Positions 1 to 15,075 of a DNA stretch of 64,000 bases are shown piece by piece. The position numbers were made by a program, and so were the translations under genes. The notes below the pieces were generated by a model. The model was given only the letters and a program-made list of their open reading frames with translations. It did no database searches and was not told the DNA's origin. The DNA comes from Janibacter sp. CX7. Its GTDB lineage: Bacteria > Actinomycetota > Actinomycetes > Actinomycetales > Dermatophilaceae. Numbering within the stretch: position 1 is the first letter of the stretch; each line of letters opens with the position of its first letter. The stretch is from the NCBI RefSeq assembly GCF_024362365.1, contig NZ_CP101464.1, positions 806,001-870,000 of the forward strand, written 5' to 3'.

Positions 1-247
1 GGTGCTCGAGCTCATGGGCCGCGAGGCCGGCGATTACGACCACGTCACCGACCGCCCCGGGCACGACCGGCGCTACGCCATCGACTGGAGCCGGCTGCGC
101 GAGGAGCTCGGCTGGCAGCCTCGGTACCGCGACTTCCGGTCCGGGTTGGCGGCGACGATCGACTGGTACCGGACCCACGAGGAGTGGTGGCGGCCGCAGA
201 AGTCGGCCACCGAGGCCCGCTACGCCCGGAGCGAAAAGGTGCTGTGA
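1..247 (+). CDS. rfbB: dTDP-glucose 4,6-dehydratase, C-terminal end (partial)
   Basis: The gene enters from the left edge; only the last ~81 residues are seen, ending at a TGA at 245-247. The segment TDRPGHDRRYAID followed by ELGWQPRY and a closing helix with GLAATIDWY is the typical C-terminus of the RmlB/RfbB extended short-chain dehydrogenases. These convert dTDP-glucose to dTDP-4-keto-6-deoxyglucose in deoxysugar (rhamnose) synthesis for cell-surface glycans. The NAD-binding and catalytic parts lie outside the window, so a related NDP-sugar dehydratase cannot be excluded. A membrane acyltransferase gene follows 36 nt downstream, consistent with a surface-polysaccharide locus to the left. 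Confidence 0.85.
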   Translation, partial: VLELMGREAGDYDHVTDRPGHDRRYAIDWSRLREELGWQPRYRDFRSGLAATIDWYRTHEEWWRPQKSATEARYARSEKVL

Positions 248-283
248 TTCCCCTTCGCCCTCGGTTTTTGGGACCATGCCGGG

Positions 284-1261
284 ATGCGCAACGGCTATCT
301 CGACCTGCTGCGGGTCGTCGGCACGGTCGCGATCGTCCTCGGGCACATCGAGGGTCTCAAGCCGCTGCCGGACTACGTCTACCCCTGGCACGTGCCGCTG
401 TACTTCATGTTGTCGGGGTGGCTGTGGCGGCCGGGGTCACGTGACTTCGGCAGCGAGGTCAAGGTGCGCGCCAAGACCCTGCTGCTGCCGTACGTCCCGT
501 GGTTTGCGATCGTCTCCCTCGTCTACGGGCTCGAGCTGTGGCGAAGGGGGCGCGACAGCACCGGCAAGGTCGAGGAGCAGCTGCCGGGCGGGGCCTATGC
601 GATCGAGCCGTACTCCGCCTTCTGGTTCATCACCGCGCTCTTCGTCGCCGTCGTCGTCGTCCGCGCCATGGAGGCGCTGCGCCTGCCGCTGTGGCTGCAG
701 ATCGGGGTGGGCGTGGGGCTGTGCGCGCTCGTGCAGATCTACCAGGACATCTCGGTGAACTCGCCCTTCGCGATCGCGCAGGGGCTGGGGTGCGTCATCT
801 TCGTGCAGGCGGGCTACCTGGCGCGGCTGCTCACCGGGCGCTCGGGGCAGCGCTCGCGGTGGAGTCGCCGGACGCTGTGGGTGATGGCGATCGCGACCTT
901 TGCGGCCGGGGTGTGGATCACGACGTGGCCGGGGGTGGGCAACCTCAACCTGAAGTTCGCGCAGTTCAACGAGCCGGTGTGGGCCGTCCTCGCGGGGATC
1001 CTCATCAGCGCCGGGATGATCATGGCCCCGATCTACATCGGCGGGGTGTGGTCGCACCGGATCAGCACGCTCGCCCAGTCGGGCATGGCGGTGATCCTGC
1101 TGCACGCGCTCTTCGTGTGGCTGGGCAAGGACTACCACCCCTGGGCCGTCGCCGTCGTGGCGGTGGTCGTGCCGTGGACCCTCGGGCTGCTGCTCGCGCG
1201 CACGCGGTGGGGGTGGGTCTTCGGCTGCTCTCGGCCCAAGCCGCTGGTGCCGGCTGCGTGA
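284..1261 (+). CDS. acyltransferase family 3 membrane protein
   Basis: A 325-residue polytopic protein of the acyltransferase-3 (OafA/fucose 4-O-acetylase-like) family. It begins RNGYLDLLRVVGTVAIVLGH, with the early D-LR-I-VxxH pattern that carries the presumed catalytic His, and then has about ten hydrophobic segments. A conserved HVPLYFMLSGWL segment follows at ~35-45, as in this family. These enzymes move acyl groups (often acetyl) onto sugars or lipids at the cytoplasmic membrane. It lies just after a deoxysugar gene, so decoration of an exported glycan is likely but the substrate cannot be read. The ATG at 284 is the first start after the upstream stop; no strong Shine-Dalgarno is visible. 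Confidence 0.8.
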   Translation: MRNGYLDLLRVVGTVAIVLGHIEGLKPLPDYVYPWHVPLYFMLSGWLWRPGSRDFGSEVKVRAKTLLLPYVPWFAIVSLVYGLELWRRGRDSTGKVEEQLPGGAYAIEPYSAFWFITALFVAVVVVRAMEALRLPLWLQIGVGVGLCALVQIYQDISVNSPFAIAQGLGCVIFVQAGYLARLLTGRSGQRSRWSRRTLWVMAIATFAAGVWITTWPGVGNLNLKFAQFNEPVWAVLAGILISAGMIMAPIYIGGVWSHRISTLAQSGMAVILLHALFVWLGKDYHPWAVAVVAVVVPWTLGLLLARTRWGWVFGCSRPKPLVPAA

Positions 1262-1307
1262 GCCTCTGCGTCGGGAGGTCGGGAGGTCGGTTGCCCCACC
1301 CCCAGCA

Positions 1308-1353
1308 GCTCGGTTGAGGTAATCGCGACCGTCTATTCGGTCGGAGGTACCTC
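1308..1353. repeat. left hairpin repeat copy L1 of DUF559 cassette A
   Basis: A 46-bp unit starting GCTCGGTTGAGGTA and ending GGTACCTC. The outer arms GAGGTA/TACCTC enclose an inner near-inverted repeat GACCG...CGGTC. It is one of four related copies around the nuclease gene at 1557-2609. The next copy to the right starts exactly 84 bp later. No gene is seen in 1262-1556 apart from these repeats. Confidence 0.85.
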
Positions 1354-1391
1354 TACTGGCGGGGTCAGCGGGGCGTGCTCGCGCTCATAGC

Positions 1392-1442
1392 GCTGGGTCG
1401 AGGTAACCGTGACCGACTAATCGGTCGGAGGTACCTCGTCCG
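1392..1442. repeat. left hairpin repeat copy L2 of DUF559 cassette A
   Basis: Second left copy: GCTGGGTCGAGGTA at 1392, the inner hairpin GACCGACTAATCGGTC at 1411-1426, then GAGGTACCTCGTCCG to 1442. A further half-unit, ATACCTCGAC, follows at 1446-1455. L1 and L2 are in the same orientation with an 84-bp pitch, matching the pitch of the right-hand pair. Confidence 0.85.
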
Positions 1443-1556
1443 CTGATACCTCGACGCGTCGACACGGTTGTCCCCAAGTTTGTCTGGGCGGGTCCAGTTG
1501 TCCACCGATCTCGCGAGGGGGGCCGCGAGGGGAGCACTCTCCTCCACTGTTCGGAG

Positions 1557-2609
1557 ATGACCGACACCACGCCCGAGCAGCCAGAGGATGCCCACAGCCA
1601 CGACGACGAAGGGGGTCGACCGCACGTCACGCGCGAAGGACCGCTGGACCGCCATCAGCGGGTGCTCGCCGTCGCGGAGGACACCGACTTCGTCGTTAGC
1701 CACCAGATGCTGCGCGCCATCGGAGTGAGCCGGCAGCAGGCAGCGCGTCAGGTCTCGGCCGGTCGTTGGACGAAGTGCGGCAGCCGGACCTTCGCTGTGC
1801 GCACCGGGCCGTTGGGGTTTCACGCCCGGTGCTGGCGAGGCGTGTGGGAGACGGGGGAGAGGATCGCCGTCATCGACGGGGTGAGCTCGCTCCGGCTCGC
1901 CGGGCTCAAGGGGTGGGACGAAGGCGACGTCGTCTTCGTGTCCGTCGTCCACCGGCACGACCGGACTCACCGTGAGGGAGTACAGGTGCGCAAGCTCGCT
2001 CGCCGCGTCCCCGACGAGGTCATCTCCTCGGGGGTACCGCGCACGCGCCCCGCAGTGGCAGCGATCCGGGCCGCGCACTGGGCAGCGAGCGACCGCGCGG
2101 CAGCGACTCTGCTCGCGATGGCCGTGCAACAGCGCCTTGTCACCCCCGATCAACTCGTCACGGCAGGGCAGATCGTCAAGGGGCGGACGCGCAGAGCCTT
2201 CATCGCACAGGTCGTCGCCGACATCGCCACCGGCGCCCACTCGCTCAACGAGCTCGACTTCGCGGCGGCGTGCCGGGCGCGGGGGCTTCCGGAGCCGACT
2301 CGTCAGGCGGTGCGCACGGGGTCCAAAGGGAGGGTGTACCTCGACGTGCTCTTCGAAAAGCACGGGCTGGTCGTCGAGATCGATGGTGCCGGCCACCTCT
2401 GGGGACTCAACGGTATCGCCGACGCCCTCCGAGCCAATCAAGTCGTCATCGACGGAGACCGCGTGCTGCGCATCAACGTCCTGGGCTGGCGGCTCGATGC
2501 CGACGCCTTCATGGATCAGGTGACTGCCGCCCTTCGCTCCGGGTGGGCACGGGAAAACCTCGCCAGACACAACGCAGACACGCTCGAGGTGCCACCGGAC
2601 GAGGTGTGA
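1557..2609 (+). CDS. DUF559-type protein: winged-helix N-terminus plus PD-(D/E)XK nuclease domain
   Basis: A 350-residue protein with two parts. Residues ~40-90 read like the AbiEi-type winged helix (LRAIGVSRQQAARQVSAGRW). Residues ~230-340 carry a DUF559/Vsr-like PD-(D/E)XK fold: E in SLNELD, D in YLDVLF and E-x-D in VVEIDGAGH. The basic DALRANQVVIDGDRVLRI strand and a closing helix complete the domain. DUF559 proteins are predicted DNA endonucleases, often annotated as type IV toxin-antitoxin AbiEi-like; no function is established. The stop codon at 2607-2609 lies inside the right-hand repeat R1. Two inverted repeat copies flank each side, so the gene looks like the cargo or driver of a palindrome-bounded cassette. 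The ATG at 1557 lacks a clear Shine-Dalgarno. Confidence 0.75.
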   Translation: MTDTTPEQPEDAHSHDDEGGRPHVTREGPLDRHQRVLAVAEDTDFVVSHQMLRAIGVSRQQAARQVSAGRWTKCGSRTFAVRTGPLGFHARCWRGVWETGERIAVIDGVSSLRLAGLKGWDEGDVVFVSVVHRHDRTHREGVQVRKLARRVPDEVISSGVPRTRPAVAAIRAAHWAASDRAAATLLAMAVQQRLVTPDQLVTAGQIVKGRTRRAFIAQVVADIATGAHSLNELDFAAACRARGLPEPTRQAVRTGSKGRVYLDVLFEKHGLVVEIDGAGHLWGLNGIADALRANQVVIDGDRVLRINVLGWRLDADAFMDQVTAALRSGWARENLARHNADTLEVPPDEV

Positions 2610-2644
2610 GCGACCGGATAGTCGGTCAGAGATACCTCAACCCG
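2598..2644. repeat. right hairpin repeat copy R1, overlapping the nuclease stop codon
   Basis: Begins CGGACGAGGTGTGAGCGACC, has the core GACCGGATAGTCGGTC at 2612-2627 and ends ATACCTCAACCC. Its reverse complement aligns with L2, including the ACCTCGTCCG end, so the left and right repeats are inverted. The last codons of the preceding gene, Asp-Glu-Val-stop, are part of the repeat. Confidence 0.85.
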
Positions 2645-2678
2645 CGCGTTGGGGGAGCGGGGGCCGGAGGTTGCCTGC

Positions 2679-2730
2679 TGGGTCGAGGTGTGAGCGACCG
2701 GATAGTCGGTCAGGGATACCTCAACCGAGC
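2679..2730. repeat. right hairpin repeat copy R2 of DUF559 cassette A
   Basis: Starts TGGGTCGAGGTGTGAGCGAC, has the same core at 2696-2711 and ends TACCTCAACCGAGC. Its reverse complement starts GCTCGGTTGAGGTA, identical to the outer end of L1 over 14 bp. The R1-to-R2 pitch is 84 bp, as on the left. No short target-site duplication is evident outside 1308 or 2730. Confidence 0.85.
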
Positions 2731-2791
2731 GGTCCGGGGGCCCTGCAGGAGGGCTCGCAGGAGGCGACGAAGGTGGGAAGGGGGACCGGGG

Positions 2792-3451
2792 TCAGCCGAT
2801 CCACTCGCCCCAGCCGTGGTGCAGCACGAGCCAGGCGATCAGGCCGTAGCCCGCCTGGCCGGGGTGCACGCCATCAGCGGAGGCGGCGATGTCGGACTCC
2901 CACTGGTCGTGGCCGGCCAGCGGGGTGAAGGTGTCGACGAACGTGACGCCCCGGCGGTCGCAGACGTCGCGCTGGGCCTCGACGACGTGGCGCAGCTGGT
3001 TGTTGACCTCCGGGTCGGCGGAGGGCGGGGGGCCGACGACGAAGGTCGCGACACCCTGGCTCGAGGCCTCGTCGAGGATGTTGGCGAGGTTGAGCCGCAG
3101 GCGGGCGATCGAGGTGGCCTGGGCGACGTCGGCATGGCCGATCTGGACGACCAGCCGCCGCTCGAAGACCCCCTCGAAGCGGGCGGGGGACTCGCGCAGC
3201 CAGCGCTCGGCGACCCCGCCGGCGGTCTCGCCGCGCACCCCGAGGTTGTAGTGCGCGACGACCGCGTCCTTGACCTGGGTGCGGGCCATGACCCGACCGA
3301 CCCACCCAAGAGCCTTGTCGTCACCCTCGCCGGCGACGAAGGAGTCGCCGATGAAGACCAGCGAGATCTCCCGGCGCCCGTCCTCCTGGCCGAAGGTCGC
3401 GCTGGGGGTGAACTCGTTGCCGGCTGCGTCCGTCATCGGGTGGCCGCTCAC
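2792..3451 (-). CDS. SGNH/GDSL-family hydrolase, atypical block III
   Basis: A 219-residue protein with the SGNH hydrolase blocks: FIGDSF near residue 33 (Ser nucleophile), NLGVRGETA (block II Gly) and DGVHP near 195 (Asp/His pair). Block III reads IGHADV where the family normally has GxND, so the oxyanion-hole Asn appears to be Ala. The family contains esterases, lipases and deacetylases; the substrate here is unknown. There is no signal peptide, so it is probably cytoplasmic. The GTG at 3451 is chosen because AGGAG lies 8 nt upstream; an ATG at 3436 is the alternative. It is last in a minus-strand run after kgd and the DUF6104 gene, 45 nt apart from the latter. Confidence 0.8.
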   Translation of the reverse strand: MSGHPMTDAAGNEFTPSATFGQEDGRREISLVFIGDSFVAGEGDDKALGWVGRVMARTQVKDAVVAHYNLGVRGETAGGVAERWLRESPARFEGVFERRLVVQIGHADVAQATSIARLRLNLANILDEASSQGVATFVVGPPPSADPEVNNQLRHVVEAQRDVCDRRGVTFVDTFTPLAGHDQWESDIAASADGVHPGQAGYGLIAWLVLHHGWGEWIG

Positions 3452-3496
3452 GTGGGGTACTCCTGGGGTGGGTCGGTCTGTGGGTCCCGGCCGACG

Positions 3497-3682
3497 TTAC
3501 TCGTCGTCGAGCTCCTCGTCGTCGAGGCGTGCCAGCCACGACGCGAGTCGCTCGATCGGCGTCTCGAACTCGGGGTTGAGGTCGACGAAGGTTCGGAGCT
3601 GGTCACTCACCCACTCGAGAGTGACCTGCTCCTCACCACGTCGGTCCGCGAGCTCCTCGATGCCGCGGTCCGTGAAGTACAT
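3497..3682 (-). CDS. DUF6104 family small protein
   Basis: A 61-residue acidic protein beginning [11 protein letters not shown] and ending in an Asp/Glu-rich tail, matching the actinobacterial DUF6104 family as I recall it. The start overlaps the kgd stop by one base (TGATG), so it is translationally coupled to kgd. Such proteins commonly sit beside kgd/sucA in Actinobacteria. No enzymatic motif is visible; an accessory or regulatory role for the 2-oxoglutarate complex is only a guess from position. Confidence 0.75.
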   Translation of the reverse strand: MYFTDRGIEELADRRGEEQVTLEWVSDQLRTFVDLNPEFETPIERLASWLARLDDEELDDE

Positions 3683-6600
3683 CAGCGGTCGAAGGCGCGG
3701 GCGATGAGGTCCGCCTGCTCCTGCGCGTGCTTCTTCGCGGTACCGGCGGCGGGGGAGGCGCTCGGCGGGCGGGTGACCGCCGTCAGGGCGCGGGTCTCGC
3801 CGTGCTTGGCCAGGTCGGCCGGCAGGTTCATCCCGAGGAAGGGCCAGGCGCCCTGGTTCTCCGGCTCCTCCTGCACGAGGACGAGCTCGGCGCCCGGGTA
3901 CTGCGCCAGCTCGGCCGCGAGTTCCTCACCCGGCAGCGGGTAGAAGCGCTCGAGGTGCAGGATCGCGGTCTGCTCGTCGCCGCGCTTCTTGCGCTCGGCC
4001 TCGAGGTCCCACGTCACCTTGCCCGCGGCGATGAGCACCCGGGTGACCTGATCCCCCTTCGGCTGGGTCATGTCGGGCAGGACCGCGCGGAAGCCGCCGC
4101 TGGTGAAGTCCTCGGGCTGGCTGCTCGCGGCCTTGAGGCGCAGCATCGACTTCGGGGTGAAGACGATGAGCGGGCGACGCGGACGGTGGTAGGCCTGACG
4201 ACGCAGCAGGTGGAAGTAGCTCGCCGGCGTCGACGGGAAGGCGACCGTCATGTTGTTCTGCGCGCAGAGGGCGAGGAAGCGCTCGATGCGGGCGGAGGAG
4301 TGGTCCGGCCCCTGGCCCTCGTAGCCGTGCGGCAGGAGGAGGACGACCGAGGAGTTCTGGCCCCACTTCTGCTCGGAGGAGGAGATGAACTCGTCGATGA
4401 TCGTGGCCGCGCCGTTGACGAAGTCACCGAACTGGGCCTCCCACAGCACGAGCGCGTCGGGGCGCTCGACGGAGTAGCCGTACTCGAAGCCGAGGGCCGC
4501 GAACTCCGACAGCAGCGAGTCGTAGACCCAGAAGCGGGCCTGGCCGCCACCGAGGTAGTTGAGCGGCGTCCACTCCTCACCGTCGTTCTTGTCGATGAGG
4601 ACCGCGTGCCGCTGCACGAAGGTGCCGCGACGCGAGTCCTGACCGGCCAGACGCACCGGGGTGCCGTCCATGAGGAGCGAGCCGAAGGCGAGCATCTCGC
4701 CGGTGCCCCAGTCGATGCCGCCCTCGCTGACCGAGGCCGCGCGCTTCTGCATGGCCTGCTGCAGCTTGGGGTGGATCGTGAAGTCGGCCGGCGGGGAGTC
4801 GAAGAGGTCACCGATGTGCTTGAGATCGGTCTCGGAGATGCCGGTCTCGTCGGCGGAGCGGGTCGTCGCGTCGCTCGTCTGCGACGACGGACGCTCCAGG
4901 CCGGCGTTGTCCGGCGCGTCGGAGCCGGTGTCGCCGGAGTCGCTCGAGGCGTCGGCCGGCGAGGCGGGGGCCTTGAGGGCCTCCTTGGTCTCGACGAAGA
5001 CCCGCTCGAGCTGGGCCTGGTAGTCGCGCAGCGCGGCGTCGGCCTCCTCCGGGGTGATGTCCTTACGGCCGATGAGGTTTTCGGTGTAGAGCTTGCGCAC
5101 CGAGCGCTTGGACTCGATGAGCTTGTACATCAGCGGCTGGGTCATCGACGGGTCGTCGCCCTCGTTGTGACCGCGGCGGCGGTAGCACACGACGTCGATG
5201 ACGACGTCCTTGTGGAAGCGCTGGCGGAACTCGAAGGCGAGCTCGGCGACCCGCACGCAGGCCTCCGGGTCGTCACCGTTGACGTGGAAGATCGGCGCCT
5301 GGATCATCCGCGCGACGTCGGTGCTGTAGACCGACGAGCGGCTCGCGGACGGCGAGGTGGTGAAGCCGACCTGGTTGTTGACGACCACGTGGATCGTGCC
5401 GCCGGTGCGGTAGCCGCGCAGCTGGCTCTGCTGCAGCGTCTCGGCCACGACACCCTGACCGGCGAAGGCCGCGTCACCGTGCATGAGGATCGGCAGCACC
5501 GGGAAGTCCTCGCCGCCGTGGTTGAGGCGGTCCTGCTTGGCGCGGACGATGCCCTCGAGGACGGGGTTGACCGCCTCGAGGTGGCTCGGGTTGGCCGCGA
5601 GGTAGACCTTGGTCGTCTCGCCGTCCTCGCCGGTGAACTCGCCCTCGGTGCCGAGGTGGTACTTGACGTCGCCGGAGCCCTGGACGGACTTCGGGTCGAG
5701 CTGGCCCTCGAACTCGCGGAAGATCTGCGCGTAGGACTTGCCGGCGATGTTGGCCAGCACGTTGAGGCGGCCGCGGTGCGGCATGCCGATGCAGACCTCG
5801 TCCATGCCCTCGCTGGCAGCGCGGGTGAGGATGCGGTCGAGCACGGCGATGACCGACTCGCCGCCTTCGAGGGAAAATCGCTTCTGCCCGACGAACTTCG
5901 TCTGCAGGAAGGTCTCGAAGGCCTCGGCGGCGTTGAGGCGGCGCAGGATCCGCAGCTGCTCGTCGCTCGTCGTCTTCGCGTAGCCGACCTCGACGCGCTC
6001 CTGCATCCAGCGGCGCTGCTCCGGGTCCTGGATGTGCATGTACTCGATGCCGGTGGTGCGGCAGTAGGAGTCACGCAGGATGCCGAGGATCTTGCGCAGC
6101 TTGAGGAAGGGCTCGCCGCCGAAGCCGCCGGTGGCGAAGTGCCGGTCGAGGTCCCACAGCGTCAGGTCGTGGCTCGTGATGTCGAGGTCCTCGTGGCGAC
6201 GCTGCTTGTACTCCAGCGGGTCGATGTCGGCCATGAGGTGACCGCGCACGCGGTAGGCGTGGATGAGCTCCTGGACACGTGCGACCTTGTTGATGTCGTC
6301 GTCGTGCGTGGTGGAGATGTCCTGCACCCAGCGCACCGGCTCGTAGGGGATGCGCAGGCTCTCGAAGATCTCGTCGTAGAAGCCCTCGGCACCCAGGAGC
6401 AGCTGGTGGACGATCCGCAGGAACTCGCCCGACTGCGCACCCTGGATGATGCGGTGGTCGTAGGTCGAGGTCAGCGTGAGGATCTTGGAGACGGCATTGC
6501 GGTTGAGCGTCTCGGTGCTCGCGCCCTGCCATTCAGCGGGGTAGTCGAGGGCACCGACGCCGATGATCGCGCCCTGGCCCTTCATCAGGCGCGGGATCGA

Positions 6601-7509
6601 GTGGACGGTGCCGATGCCGCCGGGGTTGGTCAGCGACATCGTCGTGCCTTGGAAGTCCTCGACGGTCAGCTTGCCGTCGCGCGCCTTCTTGACGACGACC
6701 TCGTAGGCATTCCAGAAGGCGGTGAAGTCCATCGTCTCGGCCGGCTTGATCGCCGGGACCATGAGCTGACGGGAGCCGTCGTCCTTCTGCAGGTCGATGG
6801 CGATGCCGAGACCGACATGGGCCGGCTGGATGACGACCGGCTTGCCCTTGTCGTTCGTCGTGTAGCCGACGTTCATCTCGGGCATGGCGCGCAGCGCCTT
6901 GACCAGGGCGTAGCCGATGAGGTGGGTGAAGGAGACCTTGCCACCGCGGCTGCGCTTGAGGTGGTTGTTGATGACGATGCGGTTGTCGATGAGCAGCTTC
7001 GCCGGGACGGCGCGCACCGACGTGGCGGTCGGGACCTCGAGCGAGGACTCCATGTTGGTCACGACCCGGGCGGCAGCACCGCGAAGGGGGGTGTGCACGT
7101 CCTCCTCGACCGGCTTCTGGGCGGAGGCGGGCTTCTGCTCGTCACGCGGGGTGGGCTCGGCCTTCTTCGCCTCGGCCTTGGGCTCGGCCTTCTTCGGCTC
7201 GGCCTTGGCCGGGGCGGCCTCCGCCTTCTTGGGCTCTGCCTTCTTCGGCTCCGCCTTCGCCGGGGCGGGGGCCTCGGCCTTCTTCGGCTCGGAGGTCGGG
7301 GCGCTCGTCGCGGCAGGTGCGGCAGCCCCCTTCGGGCTGGTGCCGTTGTCCCCGCCGGACTGGCCCGGCGTGTAGTTCTCGAAGAACTCCCACCAGGCCT
7401 TGTCGACGCTGTTGCGGTCGTTCTTGAACTGCTCGTACAGCTCGTCGACGAGCCACTCGTTGGGGCCGAAGTCGTTCAGGGACACGGAGCCATCCTGGGG
7501 GTCAGGCAC
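3682..7509 (-). CDS. kgd: multifunctional 2-oxoglutarate decarboxylase/dehydrogenase E1 with fused E2 catalytic domain
   Basis: A 1275-residue TCA-cycle enzyme of the Kgd/OdhA type. Order: a short E1 N-terminal helix region ([15 protein letters not shown]), a Lys/Ala/Pro/Glu-rich linker at ~50-140, a lipoyl-free E2 succinyltransferase domain with DHRIIQG near 353, then the ThDP-dependent E1 body ([37 protein letters not shown]). It decarboxylates 2-oxoglutarate to succinic semialdehyde or feeds the dehydrogenase complex with DlaT and Lpd. A Ser/Asp/Thr-rich insertion at ~845-895 is longer than I expect for the family. GTG start at 7509 with AAAGAGG 9 nt upstream. In relatives GarA inhibits this enzyme; garA is not in the window. 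Confidence 0.95.
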
Positions 7510-7577
7510 GGCGCATACGCCTCTTTCGTCACAGTCGCGAATCAGGGCCCGAAGTCAGCGCGGACCCCACTCGGGTC

Positions 7578-7583
7578 AGCCTA
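7578..7583 (-). promoter_or_regulatory. candidate -10 box for kgd
   Basis: The minus strand reads TAGGCT, matching TAnnnT, about 70 nt before the kgd GTG. No convincing -35 hexamer is visible. The assignment rests on the motif and its position only. Confidence 0.35.
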
Positions 7584-7663
7584 ACGTGACGCAGCCCATG
7601 CGCGAGCCCCCGGTCCGCCCGCTGACGCGAGGCACGAGCCGCCGCCCCCGCACCCCATAACGT

Positions 7664-7697
7664 GACGAAGGGGGGAGCACTCGCTCCCCCCTTCGTC
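7664..7697 (-). terminator. hairpin terminator of the ABC transporter operon
   Basis: Perfect 15-bp arms GACGAAGGGGGGAGC / GCTCCCCCCTTCGTC with a 4-nt loop. It lies just after the permease stop on the minus strand and before the kgd promoter region. It has no U-tract, as is common in Actinobacteria. The stem base carries the recurrent word CGAAGGG. Confidence 0.8.
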
Positions 7698-7715
7698 CTG
7701 CTGGTGCCTCGCTCC

Positions 7716-8522
7716 TCAGGCGATGTCCTTGCGGACAGTGAGGAGGGTGCCGATGCCGGCGAGGACCGCGGCGTAGGCGATGAGCACGAGCGCCCCTGCC
7801 CACCACTGCAGCTGGTCGCCGCCCGGGCCGCCCATGGCGCTGGCGTCGACCCCGCTGACGATCGCATTGGTCGCACTCGACGGCAGGAACTTCGCGATGT
7901 CGGCGCCCCAGTCCCAGAAGCTGAGGATGACGCCGGCGATCGGCTCGACGATCCACGCGACACCGATGGCGATGAGCAGCGCGGCCACCTGGTTGGGGAT
8001 GAGGATGCCGACGCCGAGGCCGATGAGCGCCCACAGCCCGAGGACGAGCAGGCTGAGCAGCAGCGTGCGCCCGACCTCCGCGCTCGGGAAGACCTCGGCC
8101 CCGCGCGCGGCGAGGACGATGCCGCCGGCGCCCACCGAGCCGATGAGCGAGATGACGCCGTAGAAGGCGCCGATGACGAGCAGGGAGATGACCTTGGCGC
8201 CCATGACGGTGGTGCGCTTGGGCGTCGACAGGAAGGTGCTCGTGATCGTCTTGTGGCGGTACTCGCTGCCGATCTGCATGACGCCGATGGCCAGCGTGAT
8301 CAGGTAGGCGATGCCGAGGCCGCCCGTGTAGACGGAGTTGGCGATCTGCGTCGGGTCGGCCTGCATCTGCGACTCCGGCGGCACCCCGCTCTGGTCGAGG
8401 GTGTAGACGATGCCGAAGAGCGCGGCGAAGGCGGCGCTCACGAGGAGCACGGCGATGGCCATGCCCCACCACATGCGCGTGGAGAAGTACTTGAGGAACT
8501 CGGATCGGATCGCACCCAGCAT
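7716..8522 (-). CDS. ABC transporter permease (ABC-2 type)
   Basis: A 268-residue membrane protein starting MLGAIRSEFLKYFSTRMWW, the classic ABC-2 permease opening with an amphipathic helix before transmembrane segment 1. Five or six further membrane spans follow, and a conserved EYRHKTITSTFL segment at ~85. With the adjacent ATPase it should form an exporter; substrates of such pairs include antibiotics, lipids and peptides, and cannot be assigned here. The start overlaps the ATPase stop by one base (TGATG). The hairpin at 7664-7697 ends the unit. Confidence 0.85.
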   Translation of the reverse strand: MLGAIRSEFLKYFSTRMWWGMAIAVLLVSAAFAALFGIVYTLDQSGVPPESQMQADPTQIANSVYTGGLGIAYLITLAIGVMQIGSEYRHKTITSTFLSTPKRTTVMGAKVISLLVIGAFYGVISLIGSVGAGGIVLAARGAEVFPSAEVGRTLLLSLLVLGLWALIGLGVGILIPNQVAALLIAIGVAWIVEPIAGVILSFWDWGADIAKFLPSSATNAIVSGVDASAMGGPGGDQLQWWAGALVLIAYAAVLAGIGTLLTVRKDIA

Positions 8523-9490
8523 CAGTGCGTCCCTCCTTCCTGGCCCGGGGCCGAGACCGGGGAGATGCCGGCCATCGGGTCGTCGCCGAGGTTGCGGTTG
8601 GTGCCCTCGGTGAGGGAGAAGAAGAGCTGCTCGAGGTCCGCGGAGAGCGGCCGCAGCTCGTGGACCGGCACACCGGCGCGCAGGGCGACGTCGCCCACCA
8701 GCCGCAGGTCGTCGGTCTCGGCGACGATGCCGCCGTCGGCCTGGACCGCGGCCGGCACGTCGGCGATGCGCAGCGCGCCGACGAGCGCGTCGGAGTCGGT
8801 CGTGCGCACGAGCGACGTCGCGGTGCCGCGCAGCTCGCCGACCGTGCCCTCCTTGACGAGCTTGCCGTTGGCGATGATGACGACGTCGTCGACGGTCTGC
8901 TCGATCTCCTGCAGCAGGTGGCTCGACACGAGCACGGTCTTGCCCTCGGCGGCGAGGTGGCGCAGGAAGCCGCGCAGCCAGCGGATGCCCTCGGGGTCGA
9001 GGCCGTTGGCCGGCTCGTCGAGGACGAGCAGGCGCGGGTCGCCGAGCAGGGCCGCGGCCAGGCCGAGGCGCTGGCGCATGCCCATGCTGTAGCCGCCGGC
9101 CCGCTTGCGGGCGGCGGCGGGGATCCCGGTGAGCTCGAGCAGCTCGTCGACGCGGGTGGCGGGGATGCCGGCGGTGGCGGCGAGGACCCTCAGGTGGTCG
9201 CGGCCGGAGCGGCCGGGGTGGAAGTTGGTCGCCTCGAGCGCCGAGCCGACGACCCGCAGCGGCTGGTCGAGCTCGCGGTAGTCCTGGCCGTCGATCGTCG
9301 CGGTGCCGGAGGTCTGGTGGACGAGGCCGAGCAGCATGCGCAGGCTCGTCGTCTTGCCGGCGCCGTTGGGTCCGAGGAACCCGGTGATCCTCCCGGGCTC
9401 GACGTTGAAGCTGAGGTCGTCGACGGCCGTGAAGCCGCCGAACCGCTTCGTCAGGTTGCGCACCTCGACGCGCGCTCCTGTCGTGGTCAT
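8522..9490 (-). CDS. ABC transporter ATP-binding protein (DrrA/CcmA-like)
   Basis: A 322-residue ATPase with GPNGAGKTT (Walker A, ~40), the signature YSMGMRQRL, Walker B LLVLDEPANGLD and the switch SSHLL. The C-terminal ~90 residues form the extra domain found in drug- or bacitracin-type exporters. It powers the ABC-2 permease encoded by the next gene, with which it overlaps by one base. The ATG at 9490 is chosen over longer in-frame options because AAGGGG stands just upstream and the conserved domain starts right after it. Here the recurrent word CGAAGGGG doubles as the Shine-Dalgarno. Confidence 0.88.
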   Translation of the reverse strand: MTTTGARVEVRNLTKRFGGFTAVDDLSFNVEPGRITGFLGPNGAGKTTSLRMLLGLVHQTSGTATIDGQDYRELDQPLRVVGSALEATNFHPGRSGRDHLRVLAATAGIPATRVDELLELTGIPAAARKRAGGYSMGMRQRLGLAAALLGDPRLLVLDEPANGLDPEGIRWLRGFLRHLAAEGKTVLVSSHLLQEIEQTVDDVVIIANGKLVKEGTVGELRGTATSLVRTTDSDALVGALRIADVPAAVQADGGIVAETDDLRLVGDVALRAGVPVHELRPLSADLEQLFFSLTEGTNRNLGDDPMAGISPVSAPGQEGGTH

Positions 9491-9573
9491 CAGGTCCCCT
9501 TCGTCGGTGATGTCGCAGACCATGCAACCATCCCGGCCGAAGGGAGGGCATCCGCCTTTCGTCTGAACCTCAC

Positions 9574-9591
9574 CTCCCCCCGTCGGGGGAG
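9574..9591. repeat. small GC hairpin in divergent spacer
   Basis: CTCCCCC and GGGGGAG face each other across CGTC. It lies in the 194-nt divergent spacer between the ABC ATPase and the CNNM gene, upstream of the CCCTGGGG-centred palindrome. Its function is unknown. Confidence 0.5.
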
Positions 9592-9603
9592 ACCGCCCAG
9601 CCG

Positions 9604-9635
9604 AACTCTGCAAAACCCTGGGGTTTTGCAGAGTT
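9604..9635. repeat. CCCTAGGG-family palindrome, single copy
   Basis: Perfect 15-bp arms AACTCTGCAAAACCC / GGGTTTTGCAGAGTT around TG. The same unit, with CCCTAGGG at the centre, recurs at 32002-32073 and 53210-53282. This copy is between divergently transcribed genes, so it cannot be a terminator for either neighbour. Confidence 0.9.
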
Positions 9636-9668
9636 GGCGCACACAGGCAATGCTCAGCGAGCTCCCCG

Positions 9669-9674
9669 TAGAAT
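9669..9674 (+). promoter_or_regulatory. -10 box for the CNNM/CorC pair
   Basis: TAGAAT lies 10 nt before the ATG at 9685, a good TAnnaT match implying a very short or absent leader. No clear -35 is seen. Confidence 0.5.
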
Positions 9675-9684
9675 CTCGCCCACC

Positions 9685-11034
9685 ATGACCATAGGTCTTC
9701 TCATCCTGGCCCTGGTGCTCACTCTGGGTACCGCCCTCTTCGTGGCTGCCGAGTTCTCCCTCGTCGCCCTCGACCGACCCGCCGTCCAGCGAGCCGTCGA
9801 CCACGGCGACACCGCGGCCAAGCCCGTGCTGGGCTCCCTTCGCCAGCTCTCCACGCTGCTCTCCGCGTGCCAGATCGGCATCACCGTCACGACCCTGGCG
9901 CTGGGCTACATCGCCAGCCCCGCGGTCGGCTCGCTCATCCAGCCGGGGCTCGAGGCCGTCGGGGTGCCGGAGAGCGTGGCGTCCTCCTCGTCCGACGGAC
10001 TGGCCCTGATCATCGCCACCGTCTTCTCCATGATCCTCGGCGAGATGGTGCCCAAGACCCTCGCCGTGTCGGAGCCGCTGGGTGTCGCCAAGCTCGTCGC
10101 CGTGCCGATGCGCGTCATCGGCGTGCTCTTCAAGCCGCTGATCTTCGTCCTCAACGGCAGCGCCAACTGGGTGCTGCACCGCATGGGAGTCGAGCCGCAG
10201 GAAGAGTTGTCGGCCGCCCGCAGCCCTGCCGAGCTCGCCTCGCTCGTGCGCACCTCCGTCGAGGCCGGCACGCTCGACTACGGCACCGCCCGGCTCGTGA
10301 CCCGCTCGCTCGGCTTCGGCGAGCAGACCGCGGCCGACGTCATGACGCCCCGCAACCGCGCGAGCGCCATCGACCGCACCGCGTCCGCCGAGGATCTCGT
10401 CTCGCTCGCGCGCCGCACCGGTCACTCGCGCTTCCCCGTCACGGGGGAGGACTGGGACGACATCGACGGCGTCGTCCACGTCAAGAAGGCCATCGCCGTC
10501 CCGCACGACCGCCGCGCGGGCGTGCCCGTCTCCGCGCTGATGATCGACCCGATCGTCGTCCCCGAGACCCTGCGCCTGGACCCGCTGCTCATCCAGCTGC
10601 GTGACTCCGGCCTGCAGATGGGCGTCGTCGTCGACGAGTACGGCGGCACCGCGGGCGTCGTCACGCTCGAGGACCTCGTCGAGGAGATCGTCGGCGAGGT
10701 GAGCGACGAGCACGACCTCGCGCAGACCACCGGTCGTCGCCTCCGCGACGGCGTGTGGACCGTGCCCGGCCTGTGGCGCCCCGACGAGGTGCGTGACCGT
10801 CTCGGCGCCGAGGTGCCCGAGGGTGCGGCCTACGAGACCGTCGGCGGCTGGGTCATGGCCGAGCTCGGCCGGGTCCCCGAGGTCGGTGACGTCGTCGAGC
10901 TCGACGGCTGGCAGGTGACCGTCACCGACATGGACACCCGCCGCGTCGACCGCCTCCGCTTCGTCCGGCAGGCCCCCGCGGAGGGCGACGCCTCGAGCGA
11001 CGAGCGTGGGACGAAGGGGGGTGAGCTCCAGTGA
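9685..11034 (+). CDS. CNNM/CorC-family membrane protein with CBS pair and CorC_HlyC domain
   Basis: A 449-residue protein in the order: DUF21/CNNM membrane domain (residues ~1-190, with SACQIGITVTTLALGYI and GEMVPKTLAVS), a CBS pair (~210-335, ending VVVDEYGGTAGVVTLEDL) and a C-terminal CorC_HlyC domain. CNNM/CorC proteins are linked to Mg2+ (or Co2+) efflux and homeostasis; some are annotated haemolysin-like for historical reasons. It overlaps the next, paralogous gene by four bases (GTGA), so the two are co-translated and may form a heterodimer. The ATG at 9685 opens directly into the first membrane helix. Confidence 0.88.
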   Translation: MTIGLLILALVLTLGTALFVAAEFSLVALDRPAVQRAVDHGDTAAKPVLGSLRQLSTLLSACQIGITVTTLALGYIASPAVGSLIQPGLEAVGVPESVASSSSDGLALIIATVFSMILGEMVPKTLAVSEPLGVAKLVAVPMRVIGVLFKPLIFVLNGSANWVLHRMGVEPQEELSAARSPAELASLVRTSVEAGTLDYGTARLVTRSLGFGEQTAADVMTPRNRASAIDRTASAEDLVSLARRTGHSRFPVTGEDWDDIDGVVHVKKAIAVPHDRRAGVPVSALMIDPIVVPETLRLDPLLIQLRDSGLQMGVVVDEYGGTAGVVTLEDLVEEIVGEVSDEHDLAQTTGRRLRDGVWTVPGLWRPDEVRDRLGAEVPEGAAYETVGGWVMAELGRVPEVGDVVELDGWQVTVTDMDTRRVDRLRFVRQAPAEGDASSDERGTKGGELQ

Positions 11035-12062
11035 CGACCGTGCTGATCACCGTCGCCCTGCTGCTCGCCAACGGCTTCTTCGTCGGCGCCGAGTTCGCCG
11101 CGATGTCCGCGCGGCGCTCGCAGCTCGAGCCCCTCGCCGACGCCGGCAACAAGCGCGCGGCCATCGCTGTCGACGCCCTGCAGCACACCGGTGTCCTGCT
11201 CGCCACCTGCCAGCTGGGCATCACCATCTGCTCCGTGCTCCTCGGTGCCATCTCCGAGGCGGCGCTGCACCACGCGCTGCACCCCGTCATGGAGGGCATC
11301 GGCGTGCCGCACGCCTTCACCGACGCGGCCTCGCTCGTCCTGGCCATCGCGATCGTCGTCTACCTGCACGTCGTCGTCGGCGAGATGGTCCCCAAGAACC
11401 TCTCCATCGCCGGCCCCGAGCGCTCCGCGATCATGCTCGTGCCGCCGCTCATGTGGGTCATGAAGATCGCCAAGCCGGTCATCCTCGTCATGGACTGGGT
11501 CTCCAAGGCCTTCGTCCGGGCCATGGGCATCGACCCCAAGGACGAGGTCGGCTCGGCCTTCACGGCCGAGGAGGTGCAGCACATCGTCACCGAGTCGCAC
11601 CGCGAGGGGCTCGTCGAGACCGAGAAGTACGGCCTCGTCGGCGCGGCCCTCGAGTTCTCCGACAAGGACGCCCGTGACGTCGGGGTGCCCGTCGCCGACC
11701 TGGTGACCGTGCCGCGCGACGCGACGCCCGACGACATCGAGCGGCTCGTGGCCCGCTACGGGTACTCGCGCTACCCGACGACCGACGAGTCCGGCGAGCT
11801 CATGGGCTACCTGCACCTCAAGGACGTGCTCTACGCCGACGAGACCGAGCGCGCCGAGCCGGTGCCCCGCAAGCGTCTGCGCCGCATGGCGACGGTCCAG
11901 CCGGCCGACGAGGTCGAGGATGTGCTGGCGACCATGCAGCGCACCGGCACCCACTTGGCCCGCGTCGTCGACGACGCCGGCTCCACGCTGGGCGTCGTCT
12001 TCCTCGAGGACGTCATCGAGGAGCTCGTGGGCGAGGTGACGGACTCCACGCAGCGGGGGTGA
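11031..12062 (+). CDS. CNNM-family membrane protein with CBS pair, short form
   Basis: A 343-residue paralogue of the preceding protein: DUF21 membrane domain (ATCQLGITICSVLLG, GEMVPKNLS) and a CBS pair ending VVFLEDVIEELVGEV. It stops right after the CBS pair and lacks the CorC_HlyC domain. Long-plus-short CNNM pairs are common in Actinobacteria. GTG start in a GTGA overlap with the upstream stop; AAGGGGGG, part of a CGAAGGG word, provides the Shine-Dalgarno. Ion specificity cannot be told from sequence. Confidence 0.86.
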   Translation: MTTVLITVALLLANGFFVGAEFAAMSARRSQLEPLADAGNKRAAIAVDALQHTGVLLATCQLGITICSVLLGAISEAALHHALHPVMEGIGVPHAFTDAASLVLAIAIVVYLHVVVGEMVPKNLSIAGPERSAIMLVPPLMWVMKIAKPVILVMDWVSKAFVRAMGIDPKDEVGSAFTAEEVQHIVTESHREGLVETEKYGLVGAALEFSDKDARDVGVPVADLVTVPRDATPDDIERLVARYGYSRYPTTDESGELMGYLHLKDVLYADETERAEPVPRKRLRRMATVQPADEVEDVLATMQRTGTHLARVVDDAGSTLGVVFLEDVIEELVGEVTDSTQRG

Positions 12063-12086
12063 TCCCCTTCGTCCGGATCTGGCGGG

Positions 12087-12144
12087 TCAGGTGGTCGGGT
12101 CGTGCTTCGTACCCGCGGGTATGCAGCACCACGTGACCACCTGA
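12087..12144. repeat. left 58-bp palindrome of DUF559 cassette B
   Basis: Outer arms TCAGGTGGTC / GACCACCTGA, inner imperfect arms GTGCTTCGTACCC / GGGTATGCAGCAC around GC. It is the same length as the palindrome at 13168-13225 and differs from it at about seven or eight positions. It lies between the CNNM stop and the nuclease start. Confidence 0.9.
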
Positions 12145-12200
12145 CCTCTGGATGTGCACAACATCGCGGCGGCCCCCGGCGACTCCGGCACGCTGAGGAG

Positions 12201-13139
12201 GTGGCCCGACCTCGAGACCTTCCCGACCCCTTCGCCCAGGGGGCCTTCGCCGTGCGCGTGGCGAAGGGGGCCAAGGTCCCGATGAGCAGTCTGCGGACTC
12301 TGCCCAACCCCTATCGCGGGGTCCGGGCCCACGCCCCGCCGGTGACGATCGCCGAGCGCTTCGCGATGCTCTCGCTCGTGCGGCCTGGCCTGCTGCTGTC
12401 GCACTGCTCGGCGGCCCTGGTGTGGGATCTGCCGGTCCCACGCTCCTGCGAGCACCTGGCCCTGCACGTCACGGCACCGGGCACGCGGCTGCGTCGACCG
12501 GGGGTGGTCGCACACCGGGGCGCGCGCGAGGCGGACCGGGTCGCGGGAGTGCCGGTGACCTCTCTCGCCGACACGTGGATCGACCTCGCGGCGAGTCTGC
12601 CCCTCGCCGACCTCGTCGTGCTCGGGGACGCGGTCGCCCGACGCCTGAGGAGCATGGACCCCCTTCGCCAGCGGGCGGGGCGCCGGGTGCCGGGAGCGGT
12701 CCGCGCGCGGGAGGCGCTCGAGTGGATCCGGCTGGGCAGTCGGTCGGCGATGGAGACCCGATCGCGGGTGCTCTTCGTGCGGGCGGGTCTGCCGGAGCCC
12801 GCGCTCAACGTCGAGATCCACGACCCCGACGGCGGCTGGCTCGCCACGAGCGACCTCGTCTGGCGCGAGCGGCGGGTCGTGGGGGAGTACCAGGGCGCGC
12901 ACCATTTCGGCGACTACGGGCGCGGTGACGACGACATCGCGCGGCGGCGACTGATCGAGGGCAGCGGGTGGCTCTTCGTCGACTTCACCAAGGGTGACTA
13001 CTACGCGCGGCCACGGCGACTGGCCCTGCTCCGGCGGCTGGCGGGACATCTCGACTGCGCGCTCGATCCGGCGGGCCTGGCCGCGATCGAGGACTCCCTC
13101 GAGCTCCCCGGGGCTCCCGTCCGCCCGTGCGGGGCGTGA
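12201..13139 (+). CDS. DUF559-type protein (second copy): AbiEi-like N-terminus plus PD-(D/E)XK domain
   Basis: About 312 residues with the same layout as the gene at 1557 but distant in sequence. The N-terminal part LPDPFAQGAF...YRGVRAH is typical of actinobacterial DUF559 proteins with a predicted winged helix. The C-terminal ~110 residues carry E in METRSR, D in ATSDLVW and E-x-Q in VVGEYQG, then a basic helix RRRLIEGSGW. This suggests a DNA endonuclease; substrate and role are unknown. The GTG at 12201 is preferred because homologues begin just before LPDPF, although GAGGAG abuts it too closely; ATG 12282 would remove the N-terminal domain. Near-identical 58-bp palindromes flank the gene. 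Confidence 0.72.
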   Translation: MARPRDLPDPFAQGAFAVRVAKGAKVPMSSLRTLPNPYRGVRAHAPPVTIAERFAMLSLVRPGLLLSHCSAALVWDLPVPRSCEHLALHVTAPGTRLRRPGVVAHRGAREADRVAGVPVTSLADTWIDLAASLPLADLVVLGDAVARRLRSMDPLRQRAGRRVPGAVRAREALEWIRLGSRSAMETRSRVLFVRAGLPEPALNVEIHDPDGGWLATSDLVWRERRVVGEYQGAHHFGDYGRGDDDIARRRLIEGSGWLFVDFTKGDYYARPRRLALLRRLAGHLDCALDPAGLAAIEDSLELPGAPVRPCGA

Positions 13140-13165
13140 CCATGGTGCGAGAGCGCTGACAACGC

Positions 13166-13227
13166 CATCAGGTGGTCAGTTGGTGCTGCATACCTGCGGG
13201 TATGCAGCACCACTCGACCACCTGATG
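13166..13227. repeat. right palindrome of DUF559 cassette B
   Basis: Perfect outer arms CATCAGGTGGTC / GACCACCTGATG and perfect inner arms TGGTGCTGCATACC / GGTATGCAGCACCA around TGC. It sits between the convergent nuclease and Tat-protein genes, where it could also terminate transcription. Its twin at 12087 is upstream of the gene, so termination alone does not explain the pair. Confidence 0.92.
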
Positions 13228-13256
13228 CAGCGCTTGGCAGGGAGACGGCCAGTCGC

Positions 13257-13703
13257 TCAGTACTCGTAGCCGGCGCAGTGCGGGCTGGTCTGGATGCGGG
13301 CGGCCGTGACCGGGCCGTCGCCGATCGTGTAGGTGATGTCGAGCCAGGTCGCGCTGGAGCCGCCCTCGACGACGTACTCGTAGACACCGGGCTCGCCGGA
13401 GACGGCGAGCGGGCCGCGGACGACGGTCTGGGTCTCGCCGCTGCCGTTGACCACGGAGACGAGCACCGGGGCCGGCGCGGTCGCGGGCTCGACGGCGAGG
13501 AAGACGCGGTAGCCCTTGTTGTAGCCGGCCGGCTCCTGGGAGGCGCCCTGGCAGCGGGTGCCGTGGCTGCGGCCCTCGTCGATGCTCGGGATCTCGCTCT
13601 CGGACGCGGCGAGCGACGGGGCGGTGGCGGCGATGGTGATGGCCGGCGCGGTCCAGGCGATGCCCTTGGCGACGCTGCGGCGAGAGATCTGCGGGGTGCT
13701 CAT
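13257..13703 (-). CDS. secreted protein with Tat-type signal peptide, unknown function
   Basis: A 148-residue protein beginning STPQISRRSVAKG followed by a hydrophobic run ending near APSLAAS: a twin-arginine signal with a probable cleavage after residue ~33. The mature part is small, has two Cys residues (TRCQG and PHCAG, a possible disulfide) and looks beta-rich with Ig-like spacing. I do not recognise a family. The start at 13703 has GGAG 8 nt upstream. It is convergent with the nuclease gene. The spacer to the divergent PucR gene (13704-13935) shows no clear promoter by eye. Confidence 0.7.
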   Translation of the reverse strand: MSTPQISRRSVAKGIAWTAPAITIAATAPSLAASESEIPSIDEGRSHGTRCQGASQEPAGYNKGYRVFLAVEPATAPAPVLVSVVNGSGETQTVVRGPLAVSGEPGVYEYVVEGGSSATWLDITYTIGDGPVTAARIQTSPHCAGYEY

Positions 13704-13935
13704 GTGGTGCTTCTCCTGATGATGTCGGTGTCGCGCGGACCCCCTCCAACACCGGCCCCCGCCACGCGTCATCGTGCTCAGCCGCCCGCCCCCGCGCCTT
13801 CGCCCGAGGTGACAGGAGCGAGGGTTGCCAATATCACGACATGACAGTCCTCGCATCTCGAGAGGGGATGTGTGACGATCCTCCGGACGACGGGACCTGG
13901 GGAGGGGCCCGCGAGACCGCGAGGGAGGCGGTGCG

Positions 13936-15075
13936 ATGACGGGGACCACCGCGGCCGCCAGCCGGCTGGCGAGCGAGCTCCTGGCCACCCACGCGGAGCA
14001 GGTCGAGCAGCTGACGCCCGGGCTCATGCGTGACGTCGCCCGCCGGCTCGGGCGCCTCGACGTCCCCGCGGAGAGCCAATGGCCCGGCCTCGTGACCGAG
14101 CTGCTCCGCGACTTCTTCGACGTCCTCGTGGCCGACGACCTCCAGCGCATCGACGCCCCGGGCAGCATCTACGAGCGCGTCGGGACTGGCGCCGCCGGCG
14201 CGGGCATCTCCGCCGACGACTTGGCCGTCGGGATCCGGCTGTCGGCCGTGCGAACCCAGGCGCAGGTCCACCGCTTCGTTCTCGCCGGGGCCACCCCTGC
14301 CGACCCCGAAGCCGTCGTCGGGCTCCTCGCGCGCGTCGTCGCCGCGGGGGAGGCGGTCGTCGTCGCCGCGCTGCGCGGCCACGCCCTCGCGGCAGGCGAC
14401 GGTGAGTCGGTGCAGGCGCGGCGCCTCGGCGAGCTGCTCGTCGCGGGCGCGCCCGGCGCGGCCGACCTCGCCGCCCTCGTCGGGTGGCCGGCGGGCACCC
14501 ACGTGAGCGCGGTCGTCGTCGCGCCCGAGGACGCCGACCGGCTACGGGGCCGGGGGGACCTCCCCTTCGCCCGGTACGAGCGGGAGCGCGACGTCGTCCT
14601 CGTCGCGCCCGTGACCGAGGGGCTGCTCGCCACCACGCTGCGTCCGCTCGTCGCCGACGTCGACTGCACCGTCGGCCCCGTCGTGCCGCTGGCCGGGCTG
14701 CCCGACTCGCTCGCGCTGGGCGACCGGCTCACCGGACGCCGGGCGTCGGGGGCGGGTCCGGTCTTCGTCGACGACGAGCTCCTCGAGCTGGCCAGCACTG
14801 CCGACCGTTCGGTGCTCGAGGCGTTGCGGCGCAAGTACTTCGTCGAGATCGACCGCCTGCCCGCGGAGGTCCGCGAGCCGCTGCTGCAGACCCTGCACGA
14901 GTGGCTGCGGCACTGGGGCCACCGGCCTGCGACCGCCAAGGCGCTCGGGGTGCACCCGCAGACGGTGAGCGGCCGGATCAACCGGCTGCGCGACCTGCTC
15001 GCCGACGAGCTCGAGGACGCCCAGGTGCGCTCCGAGCTGCTCCTGCTGCTGACCGCGCTGGCGGCGGAGGACTGA
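13936..15075 (+). CDS. PucR-family transcriptional regulator
   Basis: A 379-residue protein with the C-terminal PucR helix-turn-helix: LLQTLHEWLRHWGHRPATAK followed by ALGVHPQTVSGRINRLRDLL. The N-terminal ~160 residues resemble the RsbRD/GGDEF-like N-terminal domain common to actinobacterial PucR regulators. Such proteins usually activate catabolic or transport genes in response to a metabolite. The MetPS-like transporter genes lie just downstream (spacer 15076-15268), a plausible target. The ATG at 13936 follows GAGGGAGG. Confidence 0.82.
   Translation: MTGTTAAASRLASELLATHAEQVEQLTPGLMRDVARRLGRLDVPAESQWPGLVTELLRDFFDVLVADDLQRIDAPGSIYERVGTGAAGAGISADDLAVGIRLSAVRTQAQVHRFVLAGATPADPEAVVGLLARVVAAGEAVVVAALRGHALAAGDGESVQARRLGELLVAGAPGAADLAALVGWPAGTHVSAVVVAPEDADRLRGRGDLPFARYERERDVVLVAPVTEGLLATTLRPLVADVDCTVGPVVPLAGLPDSLALGDRLTGRRASGAGPVFVDDELLELASTADRSVLEALRRKYFVEIDRLPAEVREPLLQTLHEWLRHWGHRPATAKALGVHPQTVSGRINRLRDLLADELEDAQVRSELLLLLTALAAED

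Follow-up and report, generated by a model that had tools for sequence, protein, structure and literature searches.

In the REPtron, an enzyme gene is located beside its cognate palindromes, copies of which are dispersed between genes, and the enzyme and the palindrome co-evolve (as outlined in parts of PMC8266576). The antitoxin AbiEi binds two 23-bp inverted repeats located 3 bp apart, and Rv2827c binds two such 23-bp inverted-repeat pairs, in each case in the protein's own promoter (excerpts of PMC7319586), whereas the EDxHD homing endonuclease I-Bth0305I dimerizes on nearly 60 bp (excerpt of PMC3943268). The two genes analyzed here resemble each of these systems in layout or in predicted fold, and differ from each in ways that are described below.

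Palindrome-bracketed genes in the window

The window, a stretch of 64,000 nucleotides, corresponds to positions 806001-870000 of the 3.23-Mb single-contig genome of Janibacter sp. CX7. It contains the following features, among which the palindromes were delineated by pattern match, comparison with shuffles and DNA folding:

1316..1353, + strand: family-1 palindrome, first left copy
1400..1437, + strand: family-1 palindrome, second left copy
1557..2609, + strand: gene 1, predicted AbiEi-like module (residues 31-224) and PD-(D/E)XK/DUF559-type nuclease domain
2601..2638, + strand: family-1 palindrome, first right copy, overlapping the end of gene 1
2685..2722, + strand: family-1 palindrome, second right copy
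12087..12144, no strand: family-2 58-bp palindrome, left
12201..13139, + strand: gene 2, predicted AbiEi-like module and Vsr/EDxHD-like nuclease domain (probable GTG start; longest ORF from 12102)
13168..13225, no strand: family-2 58-bp palindrome, right

Gene 1 is flanked by two palindromes per side and gene 2 by a single 58-bp palindrome per side. The coordinates given for the palindromes of both genes in a preliminary description of this DNA proved correct on re-mapping, and the two families are indeed unrelated in sequence, as stated there. The gene-1 palindrome pattern has six matches in the window (both strands) versus 0.01 expected in shuffles, and the gene-2 pattern has four versus 0.00, so neither can be attributed to chance. 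Folding of the six window palindromes as single-stranded DNA gives z-scores from -2.4 to -11.6, the weakest being those of both palindromes to the right of gene 1. A search of window positions 1-14000 matched no Rfam family at the gathering score. The start of gene 2 is probably the GTG at 12201, which yields a protein of 312 aa, rather than position 12102 inside the left palindrome, because the confidence of the structural model is low before approximately residue 34 and because a start codon is aligned at 12201 in the L102 relative.

Predicted domain architecture

According to AlphaFold2 models, the products of both genes are predicted to combine a module resembling the AbiEi antitoxin with a nuclease domain of the Vsr/EDxHD type in a single fusion protein. 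The N-terminal parts of both models match the AbiEi-like fold, and the C-terminal part of the gene 2 model has a fold like that of Vsr/I-Bth0305I; for the model of the gene 1 nuclease domain, there is no clear match in the VIA list. The gene 1 profile matches PvuRts1I only weakly (E 0.012), and the Pfam profile AbiEi_4 reaches 17.4 bits with gene 1, under the cut-off of 25; a Pfam search with gene 2 at E 0.1 gave no match, and neither protein was matched in NCBIfam. Acidic residues are invariant across 83 gene-1 relatives. The shared two-domain architecture originally proposed for the two genes is weakly reflected in these sequence profiles, but the predicted structures back both domains. The few source-given names that we encountered are hypothetical protein, DUF559 and very-short-patch-repair endonuclease. 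The neighbors of genes 1 and 2 encode an acyltransferase, a GDSL lipase, a CNNM/CBS protein and a protein without a Pfam match (E 0.001); there is no AbiEii/DUF1814 toxin among the immediate neighbors at the two window loci.

Matched flanks in actinobacteria

The bracketing of a nuclease gene by its own palindrome is not confined to the window. The same genome contains 10 matches to a profile built from five of its own proteins, and among the nine full-length loci, eight have matched flanks, L058 with a weak match, and the ninth, L060, lacks them. The palindrome types of these loci differ, with a perfect 42-mer at L021 and L054 and CCTAGGG-centered units at L019 and L055. An extra CCTAGGG-centered palindrome pair is present at L019 (3515-3580), about 1.1 kb past the bracketed gene and beyond the neighboring gene.

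At least 117 of the 119 genomes of the same bacterial family contain a DUF559 profile match, and a DUF559-type match was found in at least 118 of the 148 sampled genomes of the class. Among the family loci, which are the best matches listed rather than a random sample, 129 of 136 were used, leaving out five located too near a contig end (L035, L040, L082, L168 and L209), one with a partial gene (L059) and one duplicate. Matched repeats or palindromes on both flanks were found in 106 of these 129 best-listed loci versus 9 of 167 control genes from the same family, three of the nine overlapping DUF559 genes; in the remaining 23 loci, the flanks are unmatched by the threshold used. Palindrome pairs are present at 86 of the 129 loci versus 3 of the 167 controls, all three of which overlap DUF559 genes, and the median palindrome length in the family loci is 55 bp. 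In other families of the class, matched flanks were found in 60 of the 65 best-listed loci used (out of 67, L240 and L269 having been dropped). When flanks were swapped between loci, 1.8% (family set) and 0.7% (outside-family set) passed the flank threshold. The pairing of the nuclease gene with bracketing palindromes of its own, as proposed in the preliminary description, is thus general within and outside the family, and most of the DUF559 genes examined have matched flanks, the opposite of what had been named there as speaking against the idea.

A search of the named genome collection with a single-protein query, which reaches close relatives only, identified one gene-1 relative, in Janibacter indicus, and no gene-1 relative was found in the plasmid collection at E 1e-10. 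The phage collection contains one 44% relative of gene 1 (L284 3637-4530; MT837139.1) on a 7.6-kb scaffold, which is an unverified 'Bacteriophage sp.' sequence from human feces and may be bacterial DNA.

Co-variation of protein and palindrome

The analyses of co-variation, pairing, palindrome centers, T-runs and tags were performed on the 86 of the 129 family loci whose palindrome pairs score 16 or more. Among non-syntenic loci in this set, protein similarity and palindrome similarity are correlated (Mantel r 0.23, the largest value in 2,000 permutations being 0.13), in support of the previously suggested link between each protein and its palindrome. Palindromes are common to 5 of the 8 pairs with a normalized protein score above 0.6 and to 0 of the 2,833 pairs with a score below 0.4. 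Across congeners, the palindrome and the gene diverge together at the gene-1 site, and the palindrome arms of the gene-2 site have changed without losing complementarity.

Architecture of the palindrome site

In 31 family-1 copies, GAGGT, GACCG and the complements of both are near-invariant blocks, with starts at positions 1, 12, 23 and 34. The half-site blocks are spaced one helical turn, which, as far as the sequence indicates, would suit a pair of proteins contacting a single face of the duplex. The median palindrome of 55 bp compares with the two 23-bp repeats, separated by 3 bp, that AbiEi binds and with the nearly 60 bp on which I-Bth0305I dimerizes. In the spacer, pairing is mostly no better than chance and the center is asymmetric, either ATAG or CTAT; no pairing beyond column composition was detected in the 31 copies. 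The palindromes reported as hairpins around gene 1 are real, but the family-1 site resembles a double half-site on duplex DNA more closely than it does a perfect hairpin. Comparison of the left and right copies of the loci revealed 54 compensatory changes versus approximately 17 under a rough independence estimate, suggesting that kept pairing, or arm copying, may also play a part. The polar ATAG/CTAT core of family 1 might set direction. A universal palindrome center was considered and rejected: TA is present in the central four positions of 36 of the 143 even-length palindromes (about 5% expected) and in none of the 29 odd-length ones (86 loci).

These features bear on autoregulation, which is likely to occur via the upstream copy as well. 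As the only role of the palindromes, it is the main rival of the interpretation developed below, albeit a rather unlikely one: the palindromes would be AbiEi-type operators through which the protein would repress the gene that encodes it, maybe together with a small regulon, with the nuclease acting elsewhere, for example in defence or repair. The AbiEi-like fold in both models, the binding of AbiEi and Rv2827c to 23-bp inverted-repeat pairs in their own promoters (PMC7319586, excerpts as above), the resemblance of the family-1 half-sites to a duplex-binding site and the position of the left palindrome of gene 2, which ends 57 nt ahead of the probable start, are all compatible with this explanation, whereas the presence of the same palindrome downstream of the gene is not accounted for.

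Dispersal of palindromes

The gene-1 palindrome is represented in its own genome by 14 copies within 3 mismatches, 10 of which are located away from the gene. Among 16 congeners (own genome included), 13-15 copies are present only in the own genome, G123 and G101; gene 1 of the latter two is, respectively, 84% and 69% identical to that of the own genome, and the motif flanks gene 1 in all three. The remaining congeners contain 0-5 copies, the five being in G033, which has a 65% gene-1 allele, and a reversed control pattern has no copies in any of the 16. Gene presence in these congeners refers to the DUF559 loci examined, further matches being known to exist. The L021-type palindrome has nine copies in the own genome, four in G114 and three in G124, each with a related motif-flanked gene; copies are also found without a motif-flanked gene or close allele among the loci examined in G122 (4), G088 (4), G126 (2), G127 (2; this assembly is 79% complete), G123 (1) and G125 (1). 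G108 and G121 have a related allele with a diverged palindrome and a motif count of 0. The gene-2 palindrome is limited to the pair that flanks the gene in the own genome, no further copy being found within 3 mismatches.

Of the three own-genome alleles for which copies were sought, the gene 1 and L021 types thus show dispersal and the gene 2 type does not, so that REP-like dispersal is limited to some alleles. The expectation that genome-wide copies track the cognate allele holds for the gene-1 type and in part for the L021 type, the gene 2 palindrome being undispersed; likewise, the palindrome is not equally common in genomes without the gene in the case of the gene-1 type, whereas the L021 type occurs in six congeners without a close allele among the loci examined.

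Among 30 sites away from the gene, which were hand-chosen from the loci examined and classified with gene calls made in this analysis, 19 are in convergent gaps and 5 between tandem genes; a single site is in a divergent gap, and the other 5 appear to be intragenic. The prevalence of convergent gaps, with a single divergent one, argues against autoregulation alone, and is the observation that could favor transcription terminators insulating genes. This identity of the palindromes is nevertheless highly improbable: none of the 172 palindromes is followed by 8 nt that include at least five T (approximately 0.9 expected by chance) and mismatches show no G·U excess (78 G·T, 72 A·C), so the palindromes are not classical terminators; furthermore, a scan for terminators detects none of the six window palindromes, and the tracking with the protein would be left unexplained.

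Inversion, loss and mobility

The gene orientation is opposite in 78 of the 192 locus pairs that are syntenic on both sides, and 10 of 26 syntenic groups include inverted pairs (131 of 136 loci; the pairs are non-independent, a single 13-locus group contributing 40 of the 78). For comparison, inversion was seen in 0 of 36 comparisons for three ordinary genes in the vicinity of gene 1, in 1 of 7 for gene 1 itself and in 0 of 5 for gene 2. Autoregulation alone does not explain the inversion of the cassette. The median protein identity is 57% for inverted pairs versus 59% for same-orientation pairs, and the median palindrome similarity is 8.75 versus 16.5; given this lower palindrome similarity, many inverted pairs may have arisen when a related allele replaced the resident one. 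An L021-type gene with its palindrome is present at a different site in G121 (L199).

Of 14 congener regions, 7 have gene 1 at its site, one of these 7 in fragments. At site 2 of G124, the gene is absent and a 20-bp remnant corresponds to the outer arms. In the nearest relative, G123 (L101 12075-13108), the match to gene 2 is spread over several frames and the right palindrome lacks its center, so judging by this site, the nuclease and the palindrome may decay together. L109 and L111 have palindromes only upstream of gene 2. Comparison of the own genome with G123 at three places revealed no clean insertion of a dispersed palindrome: in one, the intergenic stretch is unaligned, in another, the copy is shared but degenerate, and the third copy borders a 10-kb indel. 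In G121, a 7.3-kb block with gene 1 occurs twice (L192 and L193; C1:20000-31000 and 110700-121700), the copies being 99.9% identical and about 90 kb apart; cassette transposition was ruled out as the origin of this duplicate given that the duplicated block spans 7.3 kb. Contig G068:C60 (L106) ends within a palindrome of the site-2 type, a hint that assembly may be interrupted at such sites.

Inverted repeats recombine without a dedicated enzyme. The palindromes could, then, be passive, recombination-prone repeats that were acquired with the gene and that general recombination inverts or deletes, the protein being inactive on them, and the gene-less site of G124 and the center-less palindrome of G123 fit general palindrome instability. 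We regard this explanation as improbable because the palindrome type tracks the protein type at unrelated sites, the genome-wide copy number tracks the gene-1 allele, and such flanks are absent from ordinary genes.

A candidate repeat-making system

The favored interpretation, to which we give an even chance, is that the nuclease has its own palindrome as the target, that the cassette can be inverted or lost, and that, for some alleles, the palindrome is spread. We infer the following course of events. The AbiEi-like module would bind a dyad site of approximately 40-60 bp, that is, the palindrome, probably as two monomers, and the Vsr/EDxHD-type nuclease domain would nick or cut there or close by. 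If both flanking palindromes were broken, the cassette could recombine, and it would be inverted in place, lost with a reduced palindrome left behind, or re-established at the same site. Repair would place further copies of the palindrome at other positions, chiefly in convergent intergenic gaps, giving rise, for some alleles, to REP-like non-autonomous copies. The upstream palindrome would probably serve as the operator of the gene as well.

Like REP sequences and TnpAREP/RAYT, these cassettes combine a gene located beside cognate palindromes with co-variation and, for some alleles, with intergenic dispersal. Unlike in the REPtron, the enzyme is predicted from the models to be an AbiEi-nuclease fusion rather than a HuH Y1 transposase, the gene inverts, and the gene 2 palindrome is undispersed. 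The copy numbers (14 for gene 1, 9 for the L021 type and 2 for gene 2) compare with hundreds of REP in E. coli. The tag located on the 5' side of the palindrome in the REPtron, GTAG or CGTC, is not enriched: of the 172 palindromes, 4 have GTAG (5.5 expected) and 25 have CGTC (36.3 expected). The analogy with RAYT and REP drawn in the preliminary description accordingly applies to the cognate palindromes and, in some alleles but not in gene 2, to dispersal; it does not extend to the enzyme type or the GTAG tag. The AbiE type IV toxin-antitoxin system and Rv2827c share the predicted AbiEi fold, but the present proteins are predicted to contain a fused nuclease domain, their sites flank the gene and, for some alleles, recur elsewhere in the genome, and no AbiEii gene lies beside the window genes. 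The predicted fold of the catalytic domain is like that of the EDxHD homing endonuclease I-Bth0305I and of Vsr, which acts on T:G mismatches; however, the putative DNA-binding module is AbiEi-like, in contrast to both, and unlike an EDxHD homing endonuclease, the gene is a free-standing ORF between intact palindromes, with no intron and with its presumed target uninterrupted.

Given that the REPtron enzyme and tag are missing, that there is no AbiEii toxin beside the window genes and that the presumed target is uninterrupted, the cassettes appear to be of a kind of their own, known here from sequence and models. We found no published description of such a system in the open-access literature searched, preprints aside, and the evidence suggests that palindrome-bracketed nucleases are an undescribed kind of repeat-making genetic system. 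For actinobacteria as a whole, the odds seem evenly balanced that an AbiEi-Vsr fusion nuclease with a private palindrome is a widespread element that flips, excises and spreads DNA, a HuH-independent origin of REP-like sequences in which the target and the protein co-diversify. The cognate palindrome beside each gene would provide the missing substrate, making the function testable at once. If this interpretation is correct, REP-type pairs of enzyme and palindrome have more than one origin, one of them involving an unrelated nuclease, and many natural pairs of nuclease and target, with long and diverse dyad sites, would become available.
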